A DNA stretch of 41,426 nt from Nitrospirota bacterium (GTDB lineage: Bacteria > Nitrospirota > Nitrospiria > 2-01-FULL-66-17): positions 1 through 41,426 of the forward strand of contig JBFLXB010000033.1 in NCBI GenBank assembly GCA_040757335.1, read 5' to 3'. Below the pieces are notes generated by a model. It was not told where the DNA came from. It was given only the letters and a program-made list of their open reading frames with translations, and made no database searches. Position 1 is the stretch's first letter; every line of letters starts with the position of its first letter. The position numbers were made by a program, and so were the translations under genes. Positions 8,279 to 21,995 of this stretch are shown here, piece after piece.

Positions 8279-11200
8279 ATGAGCAGCGGCTTTATCGATA
8301 TTCGAGGCGCCAAGCAACACAACCTCAAGAACCTCGACCTCCGGCTCCCGTTGGGTGAATTGATCGTGGTCACCGGGGTGAGCGGGTCGGGCAAGTCCTC
8401 GCTCGCGTTCGACACGGTCTACGCCGAGGGGCAGCGCCGCTACGTCGAGACGTTCTCGCCCTACGCGCGGCAGTTCCTCGATCGCATGGACAAACCCCGC
8501 GCCGACCGCATCGACGGCATCCCGCCGGCCATTGCGATCGACCAGACCAACCCGGTGCGGACCTCGCGTTCCACGGTCGGGACTATGACCGAGCTCAACG
8601 ACCACCTGAAGCTGCTCTTTGCGCGCGCGGCGCGGCTCTTTTGCCGAGGCTGCGGCCGGGCCGTTGCGCGAGATACTCCGGACAGCATCTTCGAGTCGTT
8701 GAGCGCCAAGGCCCCGCGGGATGCCGACGCCGTGATCACGTTTCCGGTGCGCGTGCCCGACAACTTCACCCCCACCGAGGTCAGAGACCTGCTGGCTGCG
8801 CAGGGCTACACGCGTATCCACCGCGAAGAAGGCCGGTCTTTGGAGGTCATGGCGGACCGGGTGCGGATCGCCCGGGGTCAGCGCGGCCGCATCGTCGAAG
8901 CGATCGAGGCTGCGCTCAGCCACGGCCACGGACGGGTGAACGTCTACCCCTTGGATCCTCAGGGCCACGCCGGCGCGGCTTGGCGGTTCTCGTCGTCCTT
9001 ACATTGCCCGGACTGCGACATGGAGTACCGCGATCCCATACCCAACGCGTTTTCGTTCAACTCTCCGATCGGCGCGTGCGAGACCTGTCGCGGATTCGGC
9101 CGGGTCATCGGCCTCGACATCGGCTTGGTGATTCCGGACGAGACCAAATCCCTGGCCGACGGCGCGGTCAAACCCTGGCAGAGCGAGAGTTATGCCGAGT
9201 GCCAGGACGATGTGATGCGGTTCGCCCGGCGTCGCGGGATTCCGACCGCGCTGCCGTGGCGCGAGCTGTCGCCGGACCAGCGGGCCTGGGTGCTGGAGGG
9301 CGAGGGCGCGTGGGAAGACGGCAAGTGGTACGGCGTGCGGCGCTTCTTCGCGTGGCTGGAGACCAAGAGCTACAAGATGCACATCCGCGTGCTGCTCTCC
9401 AAGTACCGCGCGTACACGCTGTGCCCGGCCTGCCGCGGGGCGCGGCTCAAGCCCGACTCATTGCTCTGGCGGCTGGGAACGAGCGAAGACAATCAGGCCC
9501 CCATTAGGAAATCCCCCCTTGCCCCCCTTTGTCAAAGGGGGGATGCGGGGGATTTGGGCCTCGCGGTTTCAGATGAGCGATTCAGCGACCTGCCGGGCCT
9601 CACGATCCACGACGTCATGTTGCTGCCCCTGGCCCGCTGCTCGGAATTTTTCAACGAGCTGCACCTCCCGCCGCCGTTGGACGAGGCCACGGATCTGCTG
9701 CTGACCGAAATCCGCTCGCGGCTGCGTTACCTGGTCGACGTGGGGCTCGGCTACCTCACGCTGGATCGCCAGTCGCGCACGCTGTCGGGCGGCGAGGTCC
9801 AGCGCATCAATCTCACCACCGCGCTGGGCACGTCGCTGGTCAACACATTGTTTGTGCTGGACGAGCCCAGCATCGGGCTGCACAGCCGCGACATGGGGCG
9901 CGTGATCGGCGTGCTCCACCGGCTTCGCGACGCGGGCAACTCGCTGCTCGTGGTCGAACACGACGCACAGGTGATGCTGGCGGCCGATCGGATCTTGGAC
10001 TTGGGACCCGGGCCGGGCGAACGCGGCGGGCAGGTCGTGTATTTCGGTCGTCCTTCCGGATTGCTGAAGTCCCCCCGCTCGCTGACGGCGCAGTACCTCT
10101 CCGGACAGAAAACCGTGGCGGCTCCGGCCGGTTCGGAAAATCCCCCCTTGCCCCCCTTTGAAAAAGGGAGGATCGAAATAGTGGGTGCGCGGGAGAACAA
10201 CCTCAAAGATCTGAACGTACGTATCCCACTCAACCGGTTCGTCTGCCTCACGGGCGTGAGCGGGTCGGGCAAGTCCACGCTGCTGCAAGACGTGCTCTAC
10301 CGGGCGCTGCGAAAGCTCAAAGGTCTGCCCACCGAGCCGCCCGGGGCGCATCGCGCGATCCGCGGGCACGAGCAAATCACCGACACGGTGTTGGTGGATC
10401 AATCGCCTATCGGGAAGACCACGCGCTCGAACCCCGCCAGCTACGTGGGCGCGTTCGCCGCGATCCGCGATCTGTTCGCCGCAGAGCCCCTGGCTCGTGA
10501 GCGCGGGTACCGGCCGTCGACCTTCAGTTTCAACGCGGGCACGGGCCGGTGTCCCGTCTGCGGGGGGAACGGGTTCGAGCGCGTGGAGATGCAGTTTCTG
10601 AGCGACGTGTACCTGCGTTGCCCGGACTGCGACGGTCGGCGCTACCGATCCGAGGTGCTGGAGGTGACCGTATGGCCCACGGGCCGCGAGGGCGCGCCCA
10701 GGTCGATCGCGGACGTGCTCGACATGACCGTGTCCGAGGCGCTCGCGTTTTTCGCGGGATCGGCCGAGGTGCAGCGAGCGCTGGAGCCCTTGGTCGCGGT
10801 AGGCCTCGACTATCTGCGGCTGGGCCAACCCACGCCCACGCTCTCGGGCGGGGAAGCGCAACGGCTCAAGTTGGCCGGCCATCTGGCCGAGCATCGTCAA
10901 GAACGATCAAGGACCCGGACCTTGTTCCTGTTCGACGAGCCCACCACCGGCCTGCACTTCGACGACATCGCCAAGCTGCTGGCCGCCCTGAGACGGCTGA
11001 TCGCCGAAGGCCACTCCGTGGTCGTGATCGAGCACCACCTGGACGTGATTCGGGCCGCGGACTGGGTCATCGACCTGGGCCCAGAAGGCGGCGAGGCAGG
11101 CGGGCGGCTCGTGTGCGAAGGCGCGCCCGGTGACGTGGCGGCGTGTGAAACGAGCCACACCGGGGCCGCGCTGCGAGCCCCCGGACACATCGTTCGGGGG

Positions 11201-13825
11201 CGGCTCTCCGAGCGCCCCAATCCTCCGATCAAGGTATCCCGAGACGAGATCCGCATCCACCACGCCCGCGAACACAACCTCAAGAACGTGGACGTCCGCA
11301 TCCCGCGCGACCGGTTCACGGTCATCACCGGCGTGAGCGGCAGCGGCAAAAGCACGGTGGCCTTCGACATCCTCTTTGCGGAAGGTCAGCGTCGCTACCT
11401 CGAATCGCTCAACGCCTACGCGCGCCAGTTCGTGCAGCCCGCGGGCCGGCCCGACGTGGACGCGATCTTCGGCATCCCGCCCACCGTGGCCATCGAGCAA
11501 CGCACCAGTCGCGGCGGGCGCAAGAGCACGGTGGCCACGTTGACCGAGCTCTACCATTTCCTCCGGCTGCTGTTCGTCAAACTCGGCACCCCCCACTGCC
11601 CGGACTGCGACGCCGCGATCGAGCCGCAATCGGCCGAAGCCATTCTCGCCCGCCTCGTCAGGCAGCATCGCGGCGACGTGATCCATGTGCTCGCCCCCTT
11701 GGTGACCGGCCGCAAGGGGTACTACACGGATCTCGCGCAGTGGGCCAGAGCCAAGGGCTTTAAGCAGCTTCGGGTGGACGGCGCGTTGCTCCCCACTGAT
11801 CCGTGGCCGCGCCTGGACCGGTTCAAGGAACACAACATTGAACTGCCCGTCGGCGAGGTGGCGGTCACCCCCAAGGCCGAGCGCCAGGTGCGCGAGGTGC
11901 TGGAGCGCGCGCTCGCGTTCGGCAAGGGCGTGGTGCGGGTCGCGCCGGGCGAGGCGCTGTTTTCGACCCGCCGCGCCTGTCCGCGTTGCGGCCGCAGTTT
12001 TGCCGAGCTCGACCCGCGGCTCTTTTCCTTCAATTCCAAACACGGCTGGTGCCCGGGCTGCTACGGCACGGGTCTGGAACTGCGCGGATTTGACGCGGAC
12101 CAGAGCGGGGAGGAGGTGTGGTGGAACGCGTGGTGGGAGGGCGGCGAGACCCCGTGTCGCGCGTGCGACGGCCGCCGGCTGAACCCCGAGGCCCTGGCCG
12201 TGCGCTTTCGCGGCAAAAACATCGCGGAGATGACCGCGTGGTCGGTCGAGCAGATCGGACGGTTCGTGGGGCGCCTCAAGCTCTCGGGCCGCGAAGTCGC
12301 GATCGGCCGCGACATCCTGGCCGAACTGCGCGGCCGCCTCAGCTTTCTCAAGGAGGTCGGTCTAGGCTACCTGGCGCTCGACCGCTCGGCGCCCACGCTT
12401 TCGGGTGGCGAGGCCCAGCGCATCCGGTTGGCCTCGCAACTGGGCTCCAACTTGCGCGGCGTGTGCTACATCCTGGACGAACCCACGATCGGGTTGCACC
12501 CGCGTGACAACCGCCGCTTGCTCGCTACACTCCAGCGGCTCGAAGCCAAAGGCAACACGGTCGTGGTGGTGGAGCACGACGAGGACACGATCCGCAGTGC
12601 CGAACACGTGGTGGATCTGGGCCCTGGCGCCGGGGCGAACGGCGGACGGGTCGTGGCCCAAGGGTCGGTACGCACCGTGATGCGGGAGCCCGAATCCATC
12701 ACGGGTCGATTCCTGAAAAGCCCGCTGCAGCACCCGGTGGTTGAGCGGCGATCGGTTGGCCGCGGTGGTGCCGCGATCGAAATCGTCGGCGCCAGACGCA
12801 ACAACCTCAAGGGCCTGCGGGTCCGCGTCCCGCTGGGGCGATTGGTCTGTGTGACCGGGGTGAGCGGCAGCGGCAAGAGCACCCTGATACGGGATGTCTT
12901 GCACGACAACCTGCGGTATCGGCTCACGGCGGGCAATGCGCGGCGCCGGGCGAGCTTCGCGTGGGTGGGTTGCCAAGAGCTCAGAGGGTGGGAAGCGGTT
13001 GGTCGCGTCCTGGAGGTGGACCAGACGCCGATCGGCAAGACGCCGCGCTCCTGCCCGGCGACCTATGTCGGGTTTTGGGACGAAATCCGTCGGCTCTTCG
13101 CGGCCACGCCCGAGGCGCGGATGCGCGGGTGGGGGCCATCGCGTTTTTCCTTCAATGTCTCGGGCGGGCGGTGCGAGGCGTGCGAGGGCCAGGGGCTCAA
13201 GACCATTGAGATGAGCTTCCTGCCCGACGTGAAGGTGAGCTGCGAAGTCTGCCGCGGTGCTCGGTTCAACACCGAGACCTTGACGGTTCGCTACCAGGAC
13301 AAGACCATTGGCGAGCTGTTGGCGATGAGCGTGGACGAGGCGGCCGCATTGTTCATCGTCCACCGCCGCATCCACCACGCGCTCCGGCTGCTGCAGGACG
13401 TGGGGCTCGGGTATCTTACGCTCGGGCAGCAGAGCCCCACGCTGTCGGGCGGCGAAGCGCAACGGATCAAGCTCGTGACCGAACTCGCGAAAACCCGCGA
13501 CCGGGACAACGGCCGTTCGGCAGGCGACTCGCACACGCTCTACGTCCTGGACGAGCCTACCATCGGCCTGCATATGGCCGATGTCGAGAAGCTCATCCGG
13601 GTCCTGCACCGCCTGGTGTCTGCCGGGCACACGGTCGTCATCATCGAGCACAATTTGGATGTCATCGCCGAGGCCGACTGGATCATCGACCTCGGCCCGG
13701 AAGGCGGCGACGCCGGCGGCCGCGTGGTCGCCCAAGGCCCGCCGGAAATGGTCGCAAGGACTCGCCCGAGATCCCATACCGCGCAGTTCCTGGCCCGGTT
13801 TCTCAGAGAGCGGGCCGCCTCCTGA
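8279..13825 (+). CDS. uvrA: Tandem double UvrA, excinuclease ABC subunit A
   Basis: The damage-recognition ATPase of nucleotide excision repair. At 1848 residues it is two full UvrA units in one chain (about 1-960 and 975-1848); single UvrA is about 940, and chlamydial UvrA is a known double form. Four Walker A motifs GVSGSGKS begin near residues 33, 659, 1018 and 1527. Four ABC signatures LSGGE(V/A)QR begin near 502, 855, 1374 and 1722. Zinc-finger cysteine pairs occur in both halves, including CPVCGGNG...CPDCDGRR and CEACEGQG...CEVCRGAR in the two C-terminal fingers. Two palindromic repeat copies are translated in frame: about residues 411-426 (KSPLAPLCQRGD), after the CPACRGARLKP finger, and 620-632 (NPPLPPFEKG), in the linker before the second ATPase domain. 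All ATPase motifs survive, so the protein is probably active. ATG 8279 gives the family start; no ribosome site is visible. Confidence 0.96.
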   Translation: MSSGFIDIRGAKQHNLKNLDLRLPLGELIVVTGVSGSGKSSLAFDTVYAEGQRRYVETFSPYARQFLDRMDKPRADRIDGIPPAIAIDQTNPVRTSRSTVGTMTELNDHLKLLFARAARLFCRGCGRAVARDTPDSIFESLSAKAPRDADAVITFPVRVPDNFTPTEVRDLLAAQGYTRIHREEGRSLEVMADRVRIARGQRGRIVEAIEAALSHGHGRVNVYPLDPQGHAGAAWRFSSSLHCPDCDMEYRDPIPNAFSFNSPIGACETCRGFGRVIGLDIGLVIPDETKSLADGAVKPWQSESYAECQDDVMRFARRRGIPTALPWRELSPDQRAWVLEGEGAWEDGKWYGVRRFFAWLETKSYKMHIRVLLSKYRAYTLCPACRGARLKPDSLLWRLGTSEDNQAPIRKSPLAPLCQRGDAGDLGLAVSDERFSDLPGLTIHDVMLLPLARCSEFFNELHLPPPLDEATDLLLTEIRSRLRYLVDVGLGYLTLDRQSRTLSGGEVQRINLTTALGTSLVNTLFVLDEPSIGLHSRDMGRVIGVLHRLRDAGNSLLVVEHDAQVMLAADRILDLGPGPGERGGQVVYFGRPSGLLKSPRSLTAQYLSGQKTVAAPAGSENPPLPPFEKGRIEIVGARENNLKDLNVRIPLNRFVCLTGVSGSGKSTLLQDVLYRALRKLKGLPTEPPGAHRAIRGHEQITDTVLVDQSPIGKTTRSNPASYVGAFAAIRDLFAAEPLARERGYRPSTFSFNAGTGRCPVCGGNGFERVEMQFLSDVYLRCPDCDGRRYRSEVLEVTVWPTGREGAPRSIADVLDMTVSEALAFFAGSAEVQRALEPLVAVGLDYLRLGQPTPTLSGGEAQRLKLAGHLAEHRQERSRTRTLFLFDEPTTGLHFDDIAKLLAALRRLIAEGHSVVVIEHHLDVIRAADWVIDLGPEGGEAGGRLVCEGAPGDVAACETSHTGAALRAPGHIVRGRLSERPNPPIKVSRDEIRIHHAREHNLKNVDVRIPRDRFTVITGVSGSGKSTVAFDILFAEGQRRYLESLNAYARQFVQPAGRPDVDAIFGIPPTVAIEQRTSRGGRKSTVATLTELYHFLRLLFVKLGTPHCPDCDAAIEPQSAEAILARLVRQHRGDVIHVLAPLVTGRKGYYTDLAQWARAKGFKQLRVDGALLPTDPWPRLDRFKEHNIELPVGEVAVTPKAERQVREVLERALAFGKGVVRVAPGEALFSTRRACPRCGRSFAELDPRLFSFNSKHGWCPGCYGTGLELRGFDADQSGEEVWWNAWWEGGETPCRACDGRRLNPEALAVRFRGKNIAEMTAWSVEQIGRFVGRLKLSGREVAIGRDILAELRGRLSFLKEVGLGYLALDRSAPTLSGGEAQRIRLASQLGSNLRGVCYILDEPTIGLHPRDNRRLLATLQRLEAKGNTVVVVEHDEDTIRSAEHVVDLGPGAGANGGRVVAQGSVRTVMREPESITGRFLKSPLQHPVVERRSVGRGGAAIEIVGARRNNLKGLRVRVPLGRLVCVTGVSGSGKSTLIRDVLHDNLRYRLTAGNARRRASFAWVGCQELRGWEAVGRVLEVDQTPIGKTPRSCPATYVGFWDEIRRLFAATPEARMRGWGPSRFSFNVSGGRCEACEGQGLKTIEMSFLPDVKVSCEVCRGARFNTETLTVRYQDKTIGELLAMSVDEAAALFIVHRRIHHALRLLQDVGLGYLTLGQQSPTLSGGEAQRIKLVTELAKTRDRDNGRSAGDSHTLYVLDEPTIGLHMADVEKLIRVLHRLVSAGHTVVIIEHNLDVIAEADWIIDLGPEGGDAGGRVVAQGPPEMVARTRPRSHTAQFLARFLRERAAS
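9509..9555. repeat. Palindromic repeat inserted in frame in uvrA (copy C)
   Basis: A full 47-nt unit. Outer ends AAATCCCCC and GGGGGATTT are inverted, and the inner hairpin CCCCCCTTTG/CAAAGGGGGG encloses TC or less. It is translated as part of uvrA (IRKSPLAPLCQRGDAGDL) and lies in a loop after the zinc-finger motif CPACRGARLKP. Confidence 0.92.
10138..10173. repeat. Truncated palindromic repeat inserted in frame in uvrA (copy D)
   Basis: The left end AAATCCCCCCTTGCCCCCC is identical to copy C, but the right arm has decayed to AAAAAGGGAGGAT. It encodes ENPPLPPFEKGRI and falls in the linker between two ATPase domains of the first UvrA unit, directly before the strand EIVGARENNLKDL. Confidence 0.88.
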
Positions 13826-17218: not shown

Positions 17219-17710
17219 TTAATCGCGACGCCCGAAGATCTTCGCATTCTCTCGCGCATCTTCTTCCAGCAGACGTCGCCAATCCCGCGGTTTGCGCGGG
17301 GCGGCGCGGAACTCCTGGTAGATCGCTTTGGCGAGTTCGACTCGATCCACGCCCTCGGGCGCGACCTGGATATCGATCTGGGCCATGGCCAGATCGAAGT
17401 CCGTGTTCATCACGGTCTCGGCGTCCATACTGTGCTCCTGGAGCACCTGGCGAATCACGCCGGCGTCCACGCCGAATCTTCGGGCCACGTCGTGGATATT
17501 GGCGGGCGCGTACCGTTTGTCCGGGCCGATTCCCAGGTGGTAGGCGCAAAAGAGTTGGAACGGATCGATCAACGCCGCATTCGAAGACTTCTGGTAGCTT
17601 GGCGGCCGACTGCTTCCGCCCGTGTCGTAGGAACGACCCGACGGCTTTGGGCGGTGATGAGGCGGTCCATGCCGTGGGCCCCCGCGCCGCGGGGGTTTAA
17701 ACGGCTTCAT
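17219..17710 (-). CDS. Unknown protein, basic N-terminus with helical domain
   Basis: About 163 residues. The first 45 are rich in Pro, Arg, Gly and His (MKPFKPPRRGGPRHGPP), probably disordered and possibly nucleic-acid binding. Residues about 55-150 form an alpha-helical region: LIDPFQLFCAYHLGIG, NIHDVARRFGVDAGVIRQVL (resembling a helix-turn-helix), then VDRVELAKAIYQEFRAAPRK. I recognise no named family. ATG 17710-17708 is chosen because it begins the conserved-looking sequence and overlaps the stop of a five-codon upstream frame. An upstream extension to 17857 is open but Arg-rich and repeat-derived. A role in RNA or DNA binding is only a suggestion. Confidence 0.6.
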   Translation of the reverse strand: MKPFKPPRRGGPRHGPPHHRPKPSGRSYDTGGSSRPPSYQKSSNAALIDPFQLFCAYHLGIGPDKRYAPANIHDVARRFGVDAGVIRQVLQEHSMDAETVMNTDFDLAMAQIDIQVAPEGVDRVELAKAIYQEFRAAPRKPRDWRRLLEEDARENAKIFGRRD

Positions 17711-17724
17711 GAGAACGTAACCAT
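17707..17724 (-). other. Five-codon leader frame overlapping the 17710 start codon
   Basis: ATG 17724-17722 encodes MVTFS and stops at TGA 17709-17707, overlapping the ATG of the next gene as ATGA. AAGGAGG lies 12 nt upstream of it, and the main ATG itself lacks a nearby ribosome site. This would allow translational coupling, but so short a frame can arise by chance. Confidence 0.3.
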
Positions 17725-17761
17725 AATGAGCTATGACCTCCTTCAGACCACATCGATTGAT

Positions 17762-17785
17762 GTATAGACGTATAGATGCATAGAC
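17762..17785. repeat. Three tandem 8-bp units
   Basis: GTATAGAC, GTATAGAT and GCATAGAC lie in a row, followed by a partial GTAC. They sit about 50 bp upstream of the gene at 17219-17710 and could be a regulator-binding array or a slippage-prone tract. On the - strand they supply several TATACG/TATACA sequences resembling -10 boxes. Confidence 0.6.
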
Positions 17786-17886
17786 GTACACTCTACTCCG
17801 ACGCGACCTGGATTTCCACCCATTACGCCTAAACCCTGTCGTGATGCGGCCCCGCACCGGACCTCTACTCCAAAATTTCTTGTACG

Positions 17887-17984
17887 CGTCAAGGTTTTTT
17901 CTTGACGGTCCTGCATCGTATCTGCTATTTATACGCTCCTTTTAGTGTTCATTGACGGCGACCTCCCCACAGATCAGCCGTCAA
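17887..17984. promoter_or_regulatory. Four TTGACG/CGTCAA motifs and possible promoter before the lipoprotein gene
   Basis: CGTCAAG (17887-17893) and CTTGACG (17901-17907) form an inverted pair around GTTTTTT. TTGACGGC (17952-17959) and GCCGTCAA (17977-17984) form a second, perfect 8-bp pair. The second motif also serves as a -35 box, TTGACG (17902-17907), with TATTTA (17926-17931) 18 nt on. This is part of a gene-free stretch from 17858 to 18182. The arrangement fits either a dimeric-repressor operator over a promoter or alternative RNA hairpins; the sequence does not decide between them. Confidence 0.45.
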
Positions 17985-18007
17985 GTCAGGCCATTCTCAT
18001 GCAGTAA

Positions 18008-18047
18008 CCACGAACCTCCTGCCGTTCGTCGCGAGGAGAGGTCGTGG
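18008..18047 (+). promoter_or_regulatory. Stem-loop in the lipoprotein gene leader
   Basis: CCACGA (18008-18013) pairs perfectly with TCGTGG (18042-18047), and inside it CCTCCT faces AGGAGAGG. With a start near 17938 the leader to ATG 18183 would be about 245 nt, unusually long. I could not match it to a known riboswitch such as the GEMM c-di-GMP type. Confidence 0.35.
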
Positions 18048-18182
18048 AGTCTCTTCTTCGGTTGAGGTTCCGATGAAGTGCAGCCCGTCTTTCTTGGTTC
18101 CGACCATCCAATACCCGTTGATCAACAGTGGCTTCCCGTCCAGAGCCACAAGACGTCCAACCTATTCACCGGAGGAGATGAA

Positions 18183-19124
18183 ATGTGGTACCGAGGCTAT
18201 CTCGCATTGCTTCTAGTGACGGCGCTGGGATCAGTGTCGTGTAACGAAGACGATATTATTGCCGCAGCGGCAGGGGACCCGGTTCCTACCGGCATGGGAG
18301 TCATGACGTCTACAGCTGCCGCTGGGGCCGTGAATGCTGTGGCCTTGGTGTTGAACGACGCAGCGCTAGCTTCGACGAAGCCGTCTCCGCAGGCCGCCTC
18401 GCCAAGTGTCGTACTCGGGGTGTTTCCGGAGCTGAGTTCGATCCAGTGTGGCACCGGCAGCATGACGATCAGCGGGGATACATCGACACTGCCGGCTAAC
18501 TTGGGCGTGACCTTCAGCGCCTGCCAGGATGGCCCGTACACGGTTAATGGCGGAGCGACTATCACTATTCCGAGCGTGCGGACGTGTACCGAGGATACCG
18601 ATGAGCCGCCCGACTTTAATCACGACGTACCCAACTCATTGACGGGCACTGTCACCAATGGCACTACGGTCACAGTCGACGGTCAGGTTCTGACACTCAC
18701 GAACATAGGCATCGCTATTACGAACCCACGGTACGATGGGTATCCTGATCCCCCTTATCAATCAGATCCGACCGGAGATGGCGGAACCTGTGGGATCGTC
18801 TCGGCGGATGTCGTTGCTACTGGTCAGGTGAGCACGGAGTTTCAGGGCGAGACCACCACGATCGATTTCGGGTCGAGCTCCCTCAACGTCAGTTTCGTGG
18901 GGAGCGCCACCCAAGTGGAAGCCACGATCGCCGGGGACATCACCATCGATACGATCTGCACCGATGGGGCGTTTCCCCTCACCATCAGCACGGTTCCGAC
19001 CGATCCACTCGTGTTTCCCGACAACGGGGACGGAACGCCGACGAGTGGAACCCTTATCGTGAATGGGGAGACGGTGAACTTCTTGACCAACCCGAGCGCC
19101 ATTCCGTGCAGCGGCTTCCTTTAA
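18183..19124 (+). CDS. Predicted lipoprotein of unknown function
   Basis: A 313-residue protein. Its N-terminus MWYRGYLALLLVTALGSVSC is a lipoprotein signal with lipobox LGSVSC, so it is lipidated on Cys20 and probably outer-membrane or surface located. The mature part is rich in Thr, Ser, Val and Gly, with several cysteines (IQCGTG, FSACQDG, RTCTED, GTCGIV, TICTDG, IPCSGF) that could form disulphides, and it looks beta-rich. No family is recognised. ATG 18183 follows GGAGGAG (18171-18177) at 5 nt, a strong site; the frame is open back to 18078 but lacks support. It precedes the subtilisin-like protease gene by 190 nt on the same strand, separated by a hairpin. Codon use looks less GC-rich than in the housekeeping genes. 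Confidence 0.8.
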   Translation: MWYRGYLALLLVTALGSVSCNEDDIIAAAAGDPVPTGMGVMTSTAAAGAVNAVALVLNDAALASTKPSPQAASPSVVLGVFPELSSIQCGTGSMTISGDTSTLPANLGVTFSACQDGPYTVNGGATITIPSVRTCTEDTDEPPDFNHDVPNSLTGTVTNGTTVTVDGQVLTLTNIGIAITNPRYDGYPDPPYQSDPTGDGGTCGIVSADVVATGQVSTEFQGETTTIDFGSSSLNVSFVGSATQVEATIAGDITIDTICTDGAFPLTISTVPTDPLVFPDNGDGTPTSGTLIVNGETVNFLTNPSAIPCSGFL

Positions 19125-19154
19125 ACCTCTGACCAGTAAGAGCATGGCCCACAG

Positions 19155-19186
19155 CCGCCCGGCCGAATCAGCTTTCGGCCGGGCGG
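19155..19186 (+). terminator. Strong hairpin after the lipoprotein gene
   Basis: CCGCCCGGCCGAA (19155-19167) pairs perfectly with TTCGGCCGGGCGG (19174-19186) around a 6-nt loop, 30 nt after the stop codon. No T tract follows, so it is either an atypical terminator or an mRNA-stabilising structure. Confidence 0.55.
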
Positions 19187-19314
19187 TGCACTCCTTTGGC
19201 AGTCTCGTCGAGAATGTGTCAGACAGCTAGTAGTCTCTTCGTGGGTCGTCAACAATATTAGGCTTCTGGTCGTAACAACCTCAAGCTGGGTCAATTGGTC
19301 TGGGACTGGGTCTT

Positions 19315-21876
19315 ATGACGATGACCACTCTAACCGGGGGCGAATATGACTCAACTCAACTCAACTCAACTCAACTCACAACACATGCGGTGCGGTGTCT
19401 GTTAATCGCATTCTGGGCTTACGGTAGCGCATATGGGGAAACACTCCCTGAGCCAGATCAGTCCGTCACGAATCAAAAAGCAGCATTACATCAGAAGCTT
19501 AGGGCGAAGGCACGACAGGAAGGTGCTGTCCGCATTATTGTCGGCACAAAGATCGACAACGAATTCCGCCTCGAAGGGGAATTGGACTATGAGCAGGCAC
19601 AAACACAGCGTAGTTCCATTTCCCGTGCCCAGCAGTCTCTCCTGAATAGGCTGAAAGCACATGACACGCGACAGGTCAAGCCCTTTGAGGCCATTCCCTA
19701 CATGGCGATTCAAGTCGACGCGGACGGGTTGGAAGCTATTCTTGCGGATCCAGAGATAACTGGCGTAGAGGAAGACGCTCTTGCCGCTCCAAATCTTCCC
19801 ATAAGCGTTCCGATGATAGGAGCGAACGCCGTTTGGAACACAGGGTTTTCTGGCGCAGGACAGACGATTGCCATTCTAGATACCGGTGTTGATAGGACCC
19901 ATCCGTTTCTCGCAGGGAGGGTGGTTTCTGAAGCTTGCTACTCTACGTCAGACCCAATCAATTCCGTGTTGTCCTTGTGTCCGAATGGCGCTACTCAACA
20001 AATTGGAACGGGCTCCGGAGTGAATTGTCCGCTGTTCATCACAGGGTGCCAACATGGTACGCATGTCGCAGGAATAGCAGCGGGAAGAGAATACACCGGC
20101 ACACCTTTTTCTGGGGTCGCTAAGGATGCAACTCTGATTGCGATTCAGGTCTTTTCTCGTCACGACTCCATCAATGTCTGCGGTCTGGAGCCGATTCCCT
20201 GTGCCAGAACCTACACGTCCGACTACATTCGGGGCCTTCAACGCGTCTACGACCTGCGGAATACCTATGCAATCGCGGCTGTGAATATGAGCTTGGGAGG
20301 AGCGCCATACTATTCGAGTTCCAGCGGATGTGACAGCGCCAATACCTCTACGAAGTCTATAATTGACACGCTTCGATCTGTGGGAATTGCCACCGTTGTT
20401 TCTTCAGGCAACGATGCAACTCTTACACAACTACCGACCCCAGCCTGTATTTCGACGGCTGTTAGTGTCGGATCGGTCACTGGGCTCTCGACAATTTCTC
20501 ATTTCTCAAATAGCGCGAGTTGGCTGTCTTTGTTAGCCCCGGGGGGCGATGGGAATCCGACGTATCCATACGGCGGCGGCGGGATACAGAGTTCTATTCC
20601 GGCAGGAGGGTTCGAGTTATTGTCTGGCACATCCATGGCCGCCCCCCATGTGGCTGGCGCGTGGGCTATTTTGAAGTCTAAAAAAGCGAATGCATCAGTC
20701 AGCGAATTACTCACAACCCTAACCAGTACCGGAACCCCGATACTTGATACAAGGAATGGAATCGTCAAGCCAATGATTCGGGTAGATCTGGCGGCTGCCA
20801 CGCTCCCTGCGCCTCCCCCGGCGCCGCCGGGGGTGAGTATTGATACCGGCGGGTATCATTCCTGCGGCGTGATTTCCGGCGCTTTGCGTTGCTGGGGAAA
20901 CAATGCTTACGGAGGGTTGGGTAACGGAACGACGACCAACTCAACCACCGGCGTTCCAGTCAGTGGAATTAGTACAGCCACCTCCGTTTCCACCGGCGCT
21001 CTACACACATGCGCTCGCCTCTCTGATAGCACAGTCCGTTGCTGGGGATACAACTATTCCGGGCAACTGGGTGACGGGACTACCACCCATCGACTAACGC
21101 CGGTATCGGTCAGCAACCTAGGCGGCGCCGCAATCGCCATTGCTACGGGTAGCTTTCACACGTGTGCCTTACTCTCAGGTGGCACGGTCCGCTGCTGGGG
21201 ACAAAATAATTACGGCCAACTGGGTGACGGCACCACAACGAACAGACCTACACCGGTCTCAGTTAGTAATTTGGGTGGCACGGCGCTGGCCATTACGGCA
21301 GACGGCTCGCACACATGCGCGTTACTCTCAACCGCCAGCGTGCGCTGCTGGGGATATAACCCATGGGGTCAACTAGGCAATGGGACAAAGGCAATTAGCG
21401 TGACCACTCCTGTAACAGTTAGCGGGATTAGCTCGGCCACGGCTGTTGCAGCTGGCGGTGGTCATACGTGCGCTCGCCTTTCGAACAGCACGGTCCGTTG
21501 CTGGGGGCGTAACCAGTATGGTCAATTGGGCAACGGAACCATGTCCGATGCCACCACACCTGTGACAGTCAGCGGTATCAGTACCGCTTCGGCGATTTCT
21601 GGTGGCGGCAGCCACACGTGTGCGATCCTCGCAGATAGTACAGTCCGCTGCTGGGGATATAATTCGTTTGGCCAACTGGGTAACGGGACAACAACCAACG
21701 CTACAACGCCTGTAACGGTCAGCGGGATCAATACAGCCACGGGCATGTCGGCTGGCGGTCACGGCACATGCTCGCGTCTCTCTGATGGCACGGCGCGTTG
21801 TTGGGGTTTCAACAACTACGGGCAGCTGGGAAACGGGACTACGACTAATTCCTCAATCCCCGTTGTCGTTCAGTGA
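19315..21876 (+). CDS. Subtilisin-like serine protease with seven RCC1 repeats
   Basis: An 853-residue secreted S8-family protease as read from ATG 19315. A signal peptide lies at about 25-41 (AVRCLLIAFWAYGSAYG). Residues about 70-155 resemble an inhibitor_I9 propeptide, ending ITGVEEDALA. The catalytic domain (about 165-500) has Asp189 (ILDTGVD), His247 (HGTHVAG), oxyanion Asn in SSGNDAT and nucleophile Ser440 (GTSMAAPHVAG), so it should be active. After a Pro-rich linker, residues about 507-853 are seven RCC1 repeats of about 49 residues, each with HTCA...VRCWG...GQLGNGT, probably a cysteine-bearing beta-propeller that binds a partner or substrate. The start is ambiguous: six ACTCA units at 19349-19378 lie between ATG 19315 and the signal peptide, and ATG 19346, with better-placed GGGGG, is one frame off. 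Base composition is more AT-rich than the flanks. Confidence 0.93.
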   Translation: MTMTTLTGGEYDSTQLNSTQLTTHAVRCLLIAFWAYGSAYGETLPEPDQSVTNQKAALHQKLRAKARQEGAVRIIVGTKIDNEFRLEGELDYEQAQTQRSSISRAQQSLLNRLKAHDTRQVKPFEAIPYMAIQVDADGLEAILADPEITGVEEDALAAPNLPISVPMIGANAVWNTGFSGAGQTIAILDTGVDRTHPFLAGRVVSEACYSTSDPINSVLSLCPNGATQQIGTGSGVNCPLFITGCQHGTHVAGIAAGREYTGTPFSGVAKDATLIAIQVFSRHDSINVCGLEPIPCARTYTSDYIRGLQRVYDLRNTYAIAAVNMSLGGAPYYSSSSGCDSANTSTKSIIDTLRSVGIATVVSSGNDATLTQLPTPACISTAVSVGSVTGLSTISHFSNSASWLSLLAPGGDGNPTYPYGGGGIQSSIPAGGFELLSGTSMAAPHVAGAWAILKSKKANASVSELLTTLTSTGTPILDTRNGIVKPMIRVDLAAATLPAPPPAPPGVSIDTGGYHSCGVISGALRCWGNNAYGGLGNGTTTNSTTGVPVSGISTATSVSTGALHTCARLSDSTVRCWGYNYSGQLGDGTTTHRLTPVSVSNLGGAAIAIATGSFHTCALLSGGTVRCWGQNNYGQLGDGTTTNRPTPVSVSNLGGTALAITADGSHTCALLSTASVRCWGYNPWGQLGNGTKAISVTTPVTVSGISSATAVAAGGGHTCARLSNSTVRCWGRNQYGQLGNGTMSDATTPVTVSGISTASAISGGGSHTCAILADSTVRCWGYNSFGQLGNGTTTNATTPVTVSGINTATGMSAGGHGTCSRLSDGTARCWGFNNYGQLGNGTTTNSSIPVVVQ
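19349..19378. repeat. Pentanucleotide tandem repeat (ACTCA)x6 in the protease 5' end
   Basis: Six perfect 5-bp units lie within the first 22 codons of the protease gene. Because the unit is not a multiple of three, gain or loss of one unit changes frame. From ATG 19315 the present six units are in frame. From ATG 19346 the present state stops at TAA after 18 codons past the ATG, and removal of one unit would bring it into frame with the protease. Confidence 0.92.
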
Positions 21877-21995
21877 TCGGTCGGGCTCAGGACGCCCGTA
21901 GCGCCAGTGAGGGCTTCCGCCTTGGTCGGTGGGCCGAGCCTGTATGGCGGCCGCGAGGCGCGCGCTGAAGTGCTCGTTTGTCGAGCCGCGATCAT

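Follow-up and report, generated by a model that had tools for sequence, protein, structure and literature searches.

An (ACTCA)6 tract at the start of a predicted exported RCC1 subtilase gene in a Nitrospirota bacterium: a candidate three-state translational switch

Short tandem repeats at the start of surface-protein genes give rise to phase variation by slippage in Haemophilus, Neisseria and other bacteria. The (GACGA)4 tract of Haemophilus influenzae hsdM is described as switching at a high rate (PMC2651432). For lic2A of the same species, as cited in PMC4235727, several initiation codons lying in different frames upstream of the repeat result in graded expression. In meningococci, 19 of the 55 variable repeats found in strong candidate genes have multiple start codons around them (PMC5084427), and in Neisseria opa genes CTCTT pentamers are located within the leader-peptide region (PMC3960869).

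The locus described here lies in the window, a 41,426-nt stretch of contig JBFLXB010000033.1 of a Nitrospirota bacterium. It shares with lic2A a repeat in the 5' coding region, unequal upstream starts in different frames and, by prediction, graded states. The lic2A gene carries a CAAT tetramer and encodes a glycosyltransferase, whereas here a pentamer of few copies, seen in one genome, accompanies an exported protease. With opa, the locus has in common a pentanucleotide at the signal-peptide end of an exported-protein gene, the copy number of which sets the frame. The opa repeat, however, is found inside the leader-peptide coding region, whereas the present tract codes for TQLNS in the n-region, ahead of the hydrophobic core, and the protease is neither part of a multigene family nor an outer-membrane adhesin. 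The short pentamer tract also resembles that of hsdM, whose four units suffice for its high rate; the gene class is different, and the hsdM passage cited does not report an alternative start in another frame. The tract is best regarded as a candidate for a translational contingency locus like those of lic2A and opa, and a functional switch of this sort is assigned a probability of about 0.5.

Table 1. Features of the protease gene and its leader, with positions in the window.
Feature	Position	Strand	Properties and basis
Perfect 13-bp inverted repeat, 6-nt loop	19155..19186	.	Directly after the upstream gene; repeat search
ATG 19315 and ATG 19321	19315..19323	+	In frame at 0 mod 3 units, the assembled state
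GGGGG, Shine-Dalgarno-like site	19336..19340	+	5-nt spacer before ATG 19346; sequence and duplex energy (-8.6 kcal/mol)
ATG 19346 with 19-codon dead-end ORF (MTQLNSTQLNSQHMRCGVC, then stop)	19346..19405	+	Out of frame with the protease at 6 units
(ACTCA)6 tract	19349..19378	+	TQLNS repeats in every frame, stop-free
GTG	19390..19392	+	Downstream of the tract; no Shine-Dalgarno site, 16-residue leader, predicted paired
Signal-peptide core RCLLIAFWAYGSAYG	19393..19437	+	Translation; position fits the signal peptides of homologues
Protease ORF, 853 aa	19315..21876	+	Prodomain, Peptidase_S8 and RCC1 repeats; Pfam, translation, alignment

The perfect array is recovered both by reading the sequence and by a repeat search of the window, in agreement with the first-pass annotation, which had placed six ACTCA units between two candidate starts and the signal peptide. 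Three ATGs (19315, 19321 and 19346) lie upstream of it, the last directly adjoining the tract, and the signal-peptide core follows downstream; the pentameric unit is not a multiple of three (Table 1). The inverted repeat further upstream probably separates the transcript of the upstream gene from the protease leader. It lacks a T-run and was not scored as an intrinsic terminator, and a consensus search around the leader returned neither a sigma-70 promoter nor an intrinsic terminator. The search for known RNA elements in the leader gave a single sub-threshold match, in which the inverted repeat aligned with the model of a Caulobacter sRNA. A reading of the tract as an iteron or operator, in which two units would make 10 bp, found no support and was set aside.

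The reading frame that opens at ATG 19315 is intact over 853 codons, with no internal stop. Its product matches Peptidase_S8 in Pfam at residues 180-473 (E 2.6e-31), alignment places the catalytic triad at D189/H247/S440, and domain and Asp/His/Ser triad together assign it to peptidase family S8 (subtilases). RCC1 repeats occupy residues 526-852. The signal peptide and prodomain are putative assignments made from sequence and alignment rather than by a predictor; the signal peptide would be cleaved at a site that can be proposed in the same way, and export of the protease is likewise predicted from it. No C-terminal anchor, autotransporter barrel or sorting signal was found, Pfam returning only the S8 and RCC1 domains above cut-off and NCBIfam nothing above cut-off. 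The earlier description of the product as a surface protein therefore goes beyond this evidence, and 'exported protease' is the safer label. Each RCC1 repeat (20890-21870) displays a paired-cysteine pattern (HTC...VRCWG), which suggests an extracellular propeller stapled by disulfides. Contigs C24, C36 and C40 of the genome carry similar RCC1 arrays, the open frames there reaching 2671 codons. The gene is situated in a low-GC island (17500-21900, 51-60% GC vs 65-69% in the flanks) together with a 348-aa ORF (18078-19124) that has no Pfam or NCBIfam match. At 8279-13825 the window also contains a UvrA-like ORF of 1848 aa that has several matches to ATPases and is apparently a UvrA of double length.

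The protease is sporadic in the class, with strong matches (E <= 1e-40) in 4 of 270 genomes, and the homologous S8 subtilases are 39-48% identical to it. Prodomain, catalytic triad and signal peptide are common to both, whereas the C-terminal RCC1 repeats with paired cysteines and the tract are found here and the homologues carry other C-terminal domains and lack the tract. None of the six homologues examined, which belong to other genera, starts with a tract of this kind; a two-copy heptamer near the start of the homologue in genome G014 was considered as a similar tract and found unconvincing. Three homologues in related genomes (L145, L146 and L147) combine the same S8 catalytic domain with C-terminal regions that differ from the RCC1 repeats seen here, consisting of WENLGG-type repeats in L146 and of an unidentified domain in L147. 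In the Thiocystis violacea homologue (L037), Asp takes the place of the catalytic His in the HGTH motif (KDGTHTAGI), and judging from this substitution that protease may be inactive.

The consequences of changes in unit number were read off from leaders rebuilt in silico with 0-10 units. ATG 19315 and ATG 19321 are in frame with 3, 6 or 9 units and ATG 19346 with 2, 5 or 8. With 4, 7 or 10 units neither class of upstream ATG is in frame and GTG 19390 alone is left, this codon being in frame at every unit number. At 1 mod 3 units, a TGA overlapping ATG 19346 ends the frame just 5' of the tract, and at the present six units the dead-end peptide from ATG 19346 stops at TAA 19403-19405. The first-pass annotation had correctly stated that ATG 19315 is now in frame, where it is joined to the intact 853-aa ORF, and that ATG 19346 would become so after loss of one unit or gain of two, i.e. 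at 5 and 8 units. Its arithmetic for two starts was thus right; GTG 19390 and the 4/7/10-unit class had been overlooked, and three states rather than two result. As a control, at least one alternative-frame ATG near the gene start was found in 174 of 632 genes (28%) of the same genome, so two starts in two frames are not in themselves evidence of design, and the case rests on the combination of the tract with a strong, open second site.

The starts differ in calculated strength. Pairing with a consensus anti-Shine-Dalgarno sequence, used because the 3' end of the genome's own 16S rRNA was not recovered (the 16S matches end at model position 1228), amounts to -8.6 kcal/mol for ATG 19346, -5.3 and -5.6 kcal/mol for ATG 19315 and ATG 19321, and +2.7 kcal/mol for GTG 19390. 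For comparison, when the best ATG is taken for each of 246 long genes of this genome, the median is -5.75 and the lower quartile -8.4. None of the 160 Shine-Dalgarno-led genes compared (median -18) has a 70-nt fold as weak as that at ATG 19346 (-3.2 kcal/mol), owing to the unstructured tract, which is predicted to be mostly unpaired (0.82). When a longer stretch of leader is folded, GGGGG itself is in part paired (mean unpaired 0.38); the gain in accessibility thus varies with the folding window and is a moderate point. The length of the leader peptide also varies between starts. It would be about 29 aa from ATG 19346 at five units, is about 41 aa with two acidic residues from ATG 19315 at the present six, and comprises 16 residues with one Arg from GTG 19390; the leaders of clear homologues (L035, L036, L146, L147) measure about 24-33 aa. 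These values bear out both claims made for ATG 19346, that its ribosome site is the better one and its signal peptide the more normal. Given the better Shine-Dalgarno pairing and normal leader of ATG 19346, the assembled six-unit allele is probably the weaker state.

On these grounds, the tract would be a microsatellite prone to slippage, placed in the 5' coding sequence of the exported subtilase, and would constitute a three-state translational switch. Replication slippage would add or remove 5-bp units. A tract of 5 or 8 units would join the strong ATG 19346 to the protease frame, giving a high state, and with 6 or 9 units the weaker ATG 19315/19321 would alone be in frame, giving the low state of the assembled allele, in which ATG 19346 would drive the 19-codon dead-end peptide. 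With 4 or 7 units, only the GTG without a Shine-Dalgarno site would remain and the gene would be essentially off. Such a switch would entail length change of the tract in cells, a difference in expression between the states and, presumably, selection for switching. The anatomy that slippage-driven switching calls for is present, namely a non-triplet unit, a tract that is stop-free in all frames, a place among the early codons, unequal starts in different frames and a product that is predicted to be exported. A non-triplet repeat longer than expected by chance is present in 5' coding sequence, assuming a start at 19315 or 19346, and according to the anti-Shine-Dalgarno and fold calculations its unit number sets which frame has a usable start.

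The tract is not due to chance. In a survey of 1.87 of the 3.56 Mb of the genome (53%, sampled as stretches), it is the sole pentamer repeat of at least four copies; four others were found, each of three copies, and none between three and six. All other perfect repeats are at background level, which for three-copy pentamers a Markov simulation puts at 2.3 per 1.07 Mb. A six-copy array can hardly have formed without repeated unit gains, and since each gain shifted the frame, it would seem that switching was tolerated or that translation begins beyond the tract. No second copy of the tract or leader was detected elsewhere in the genome, no match in viral contigs, and no (ACTCA)4 in the 269 other genomes of the class, in a comparison set that has one genome for this species and genus. 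Known contingency strategists bear many such tracts. Several loci per genome are a usual, if optional, trait, and here one was found in 1.87 of 3.56 Mb.

This solitary occurrence and the tract-free homologues count against switching, as do the commonness of alternative-frame ATGs, the single tract length seen in the one genome of the species, the partial pairing of GGGGG in the longer fold and the failure to recognize a promoter that would place the transcript start and thereby support use of ATG 19315. The solitary occurrence and the tract-free homologues favor a neutral microsatellite, expanded by chance in the loosely constrained n-region of a dispensable and perhaps acquired gene, unselected and only occasionally changing in length. 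The sporadic distribution of the gene and its lower GC content relative to the flanks are as expected if it was acquired. Such an origin is rather unlikely though by no means far-fetched, since the tract lies exactly between the starts and the signal peptide, where length change acts most, and the adjoining second start is unusually strong and open; slippage would, moreover, alter expression mechanically even at a neutral repeat.

The frame would be irrelevant if translation began at GTG 19390, leaving the tract as an unstructured C/A-rich stretch of the 5' untranslated region that at most tunes ribosome access. Expansion would then pose no frame problem, as this codon stays in frame throughout, and the mainly unpaired tract fits such a role. 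The lack of Shine-Dalgarno pairing, the predicted pairing of the codon itself (unpaired 0.17) and a signal peptide with one Arg that is shorter than the clear homologue leaders make this start improbable. A wrong copy number in the assembly is harder still to credit. The draft genome consists of 61 contigs and has a suspicious G17 run at the edge of another contig, but a 30-bp tract midway along a 41-kb contig can be spanned by ordinary reads, and the frame at six units is intact from ATG 19315 through the stop. The G17 run (positions 26-42 of L085, within a G-rich stretch at the extreme edge of contig C43 of the same genome) is probably a sequencing or assembly artefact; homopolymers can also break contigs at phase-variable genes.

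A literature search on the genus Nitrospira, taken as a guess at the group, found two incidental papers and no report of tandem-repeat phase variation for the class. The most specific form of the switching hypothesis, a three-state start-switching locus acting on an exported RCC1 subtilase, assembled in its low state and belonging to a class in which no reports were found, is advanced tentatively, at somewhat less than even odds. If real, the locus would indicate that translational contingency loci reach beyond host-adapted pathogens, here to a bacterium with hardly any further microsatellites in the examined part of its genome, and the product switched would be an exported protease. With only a single locus involved, it would offer a clean setting in which to ask what selects for phase variation.
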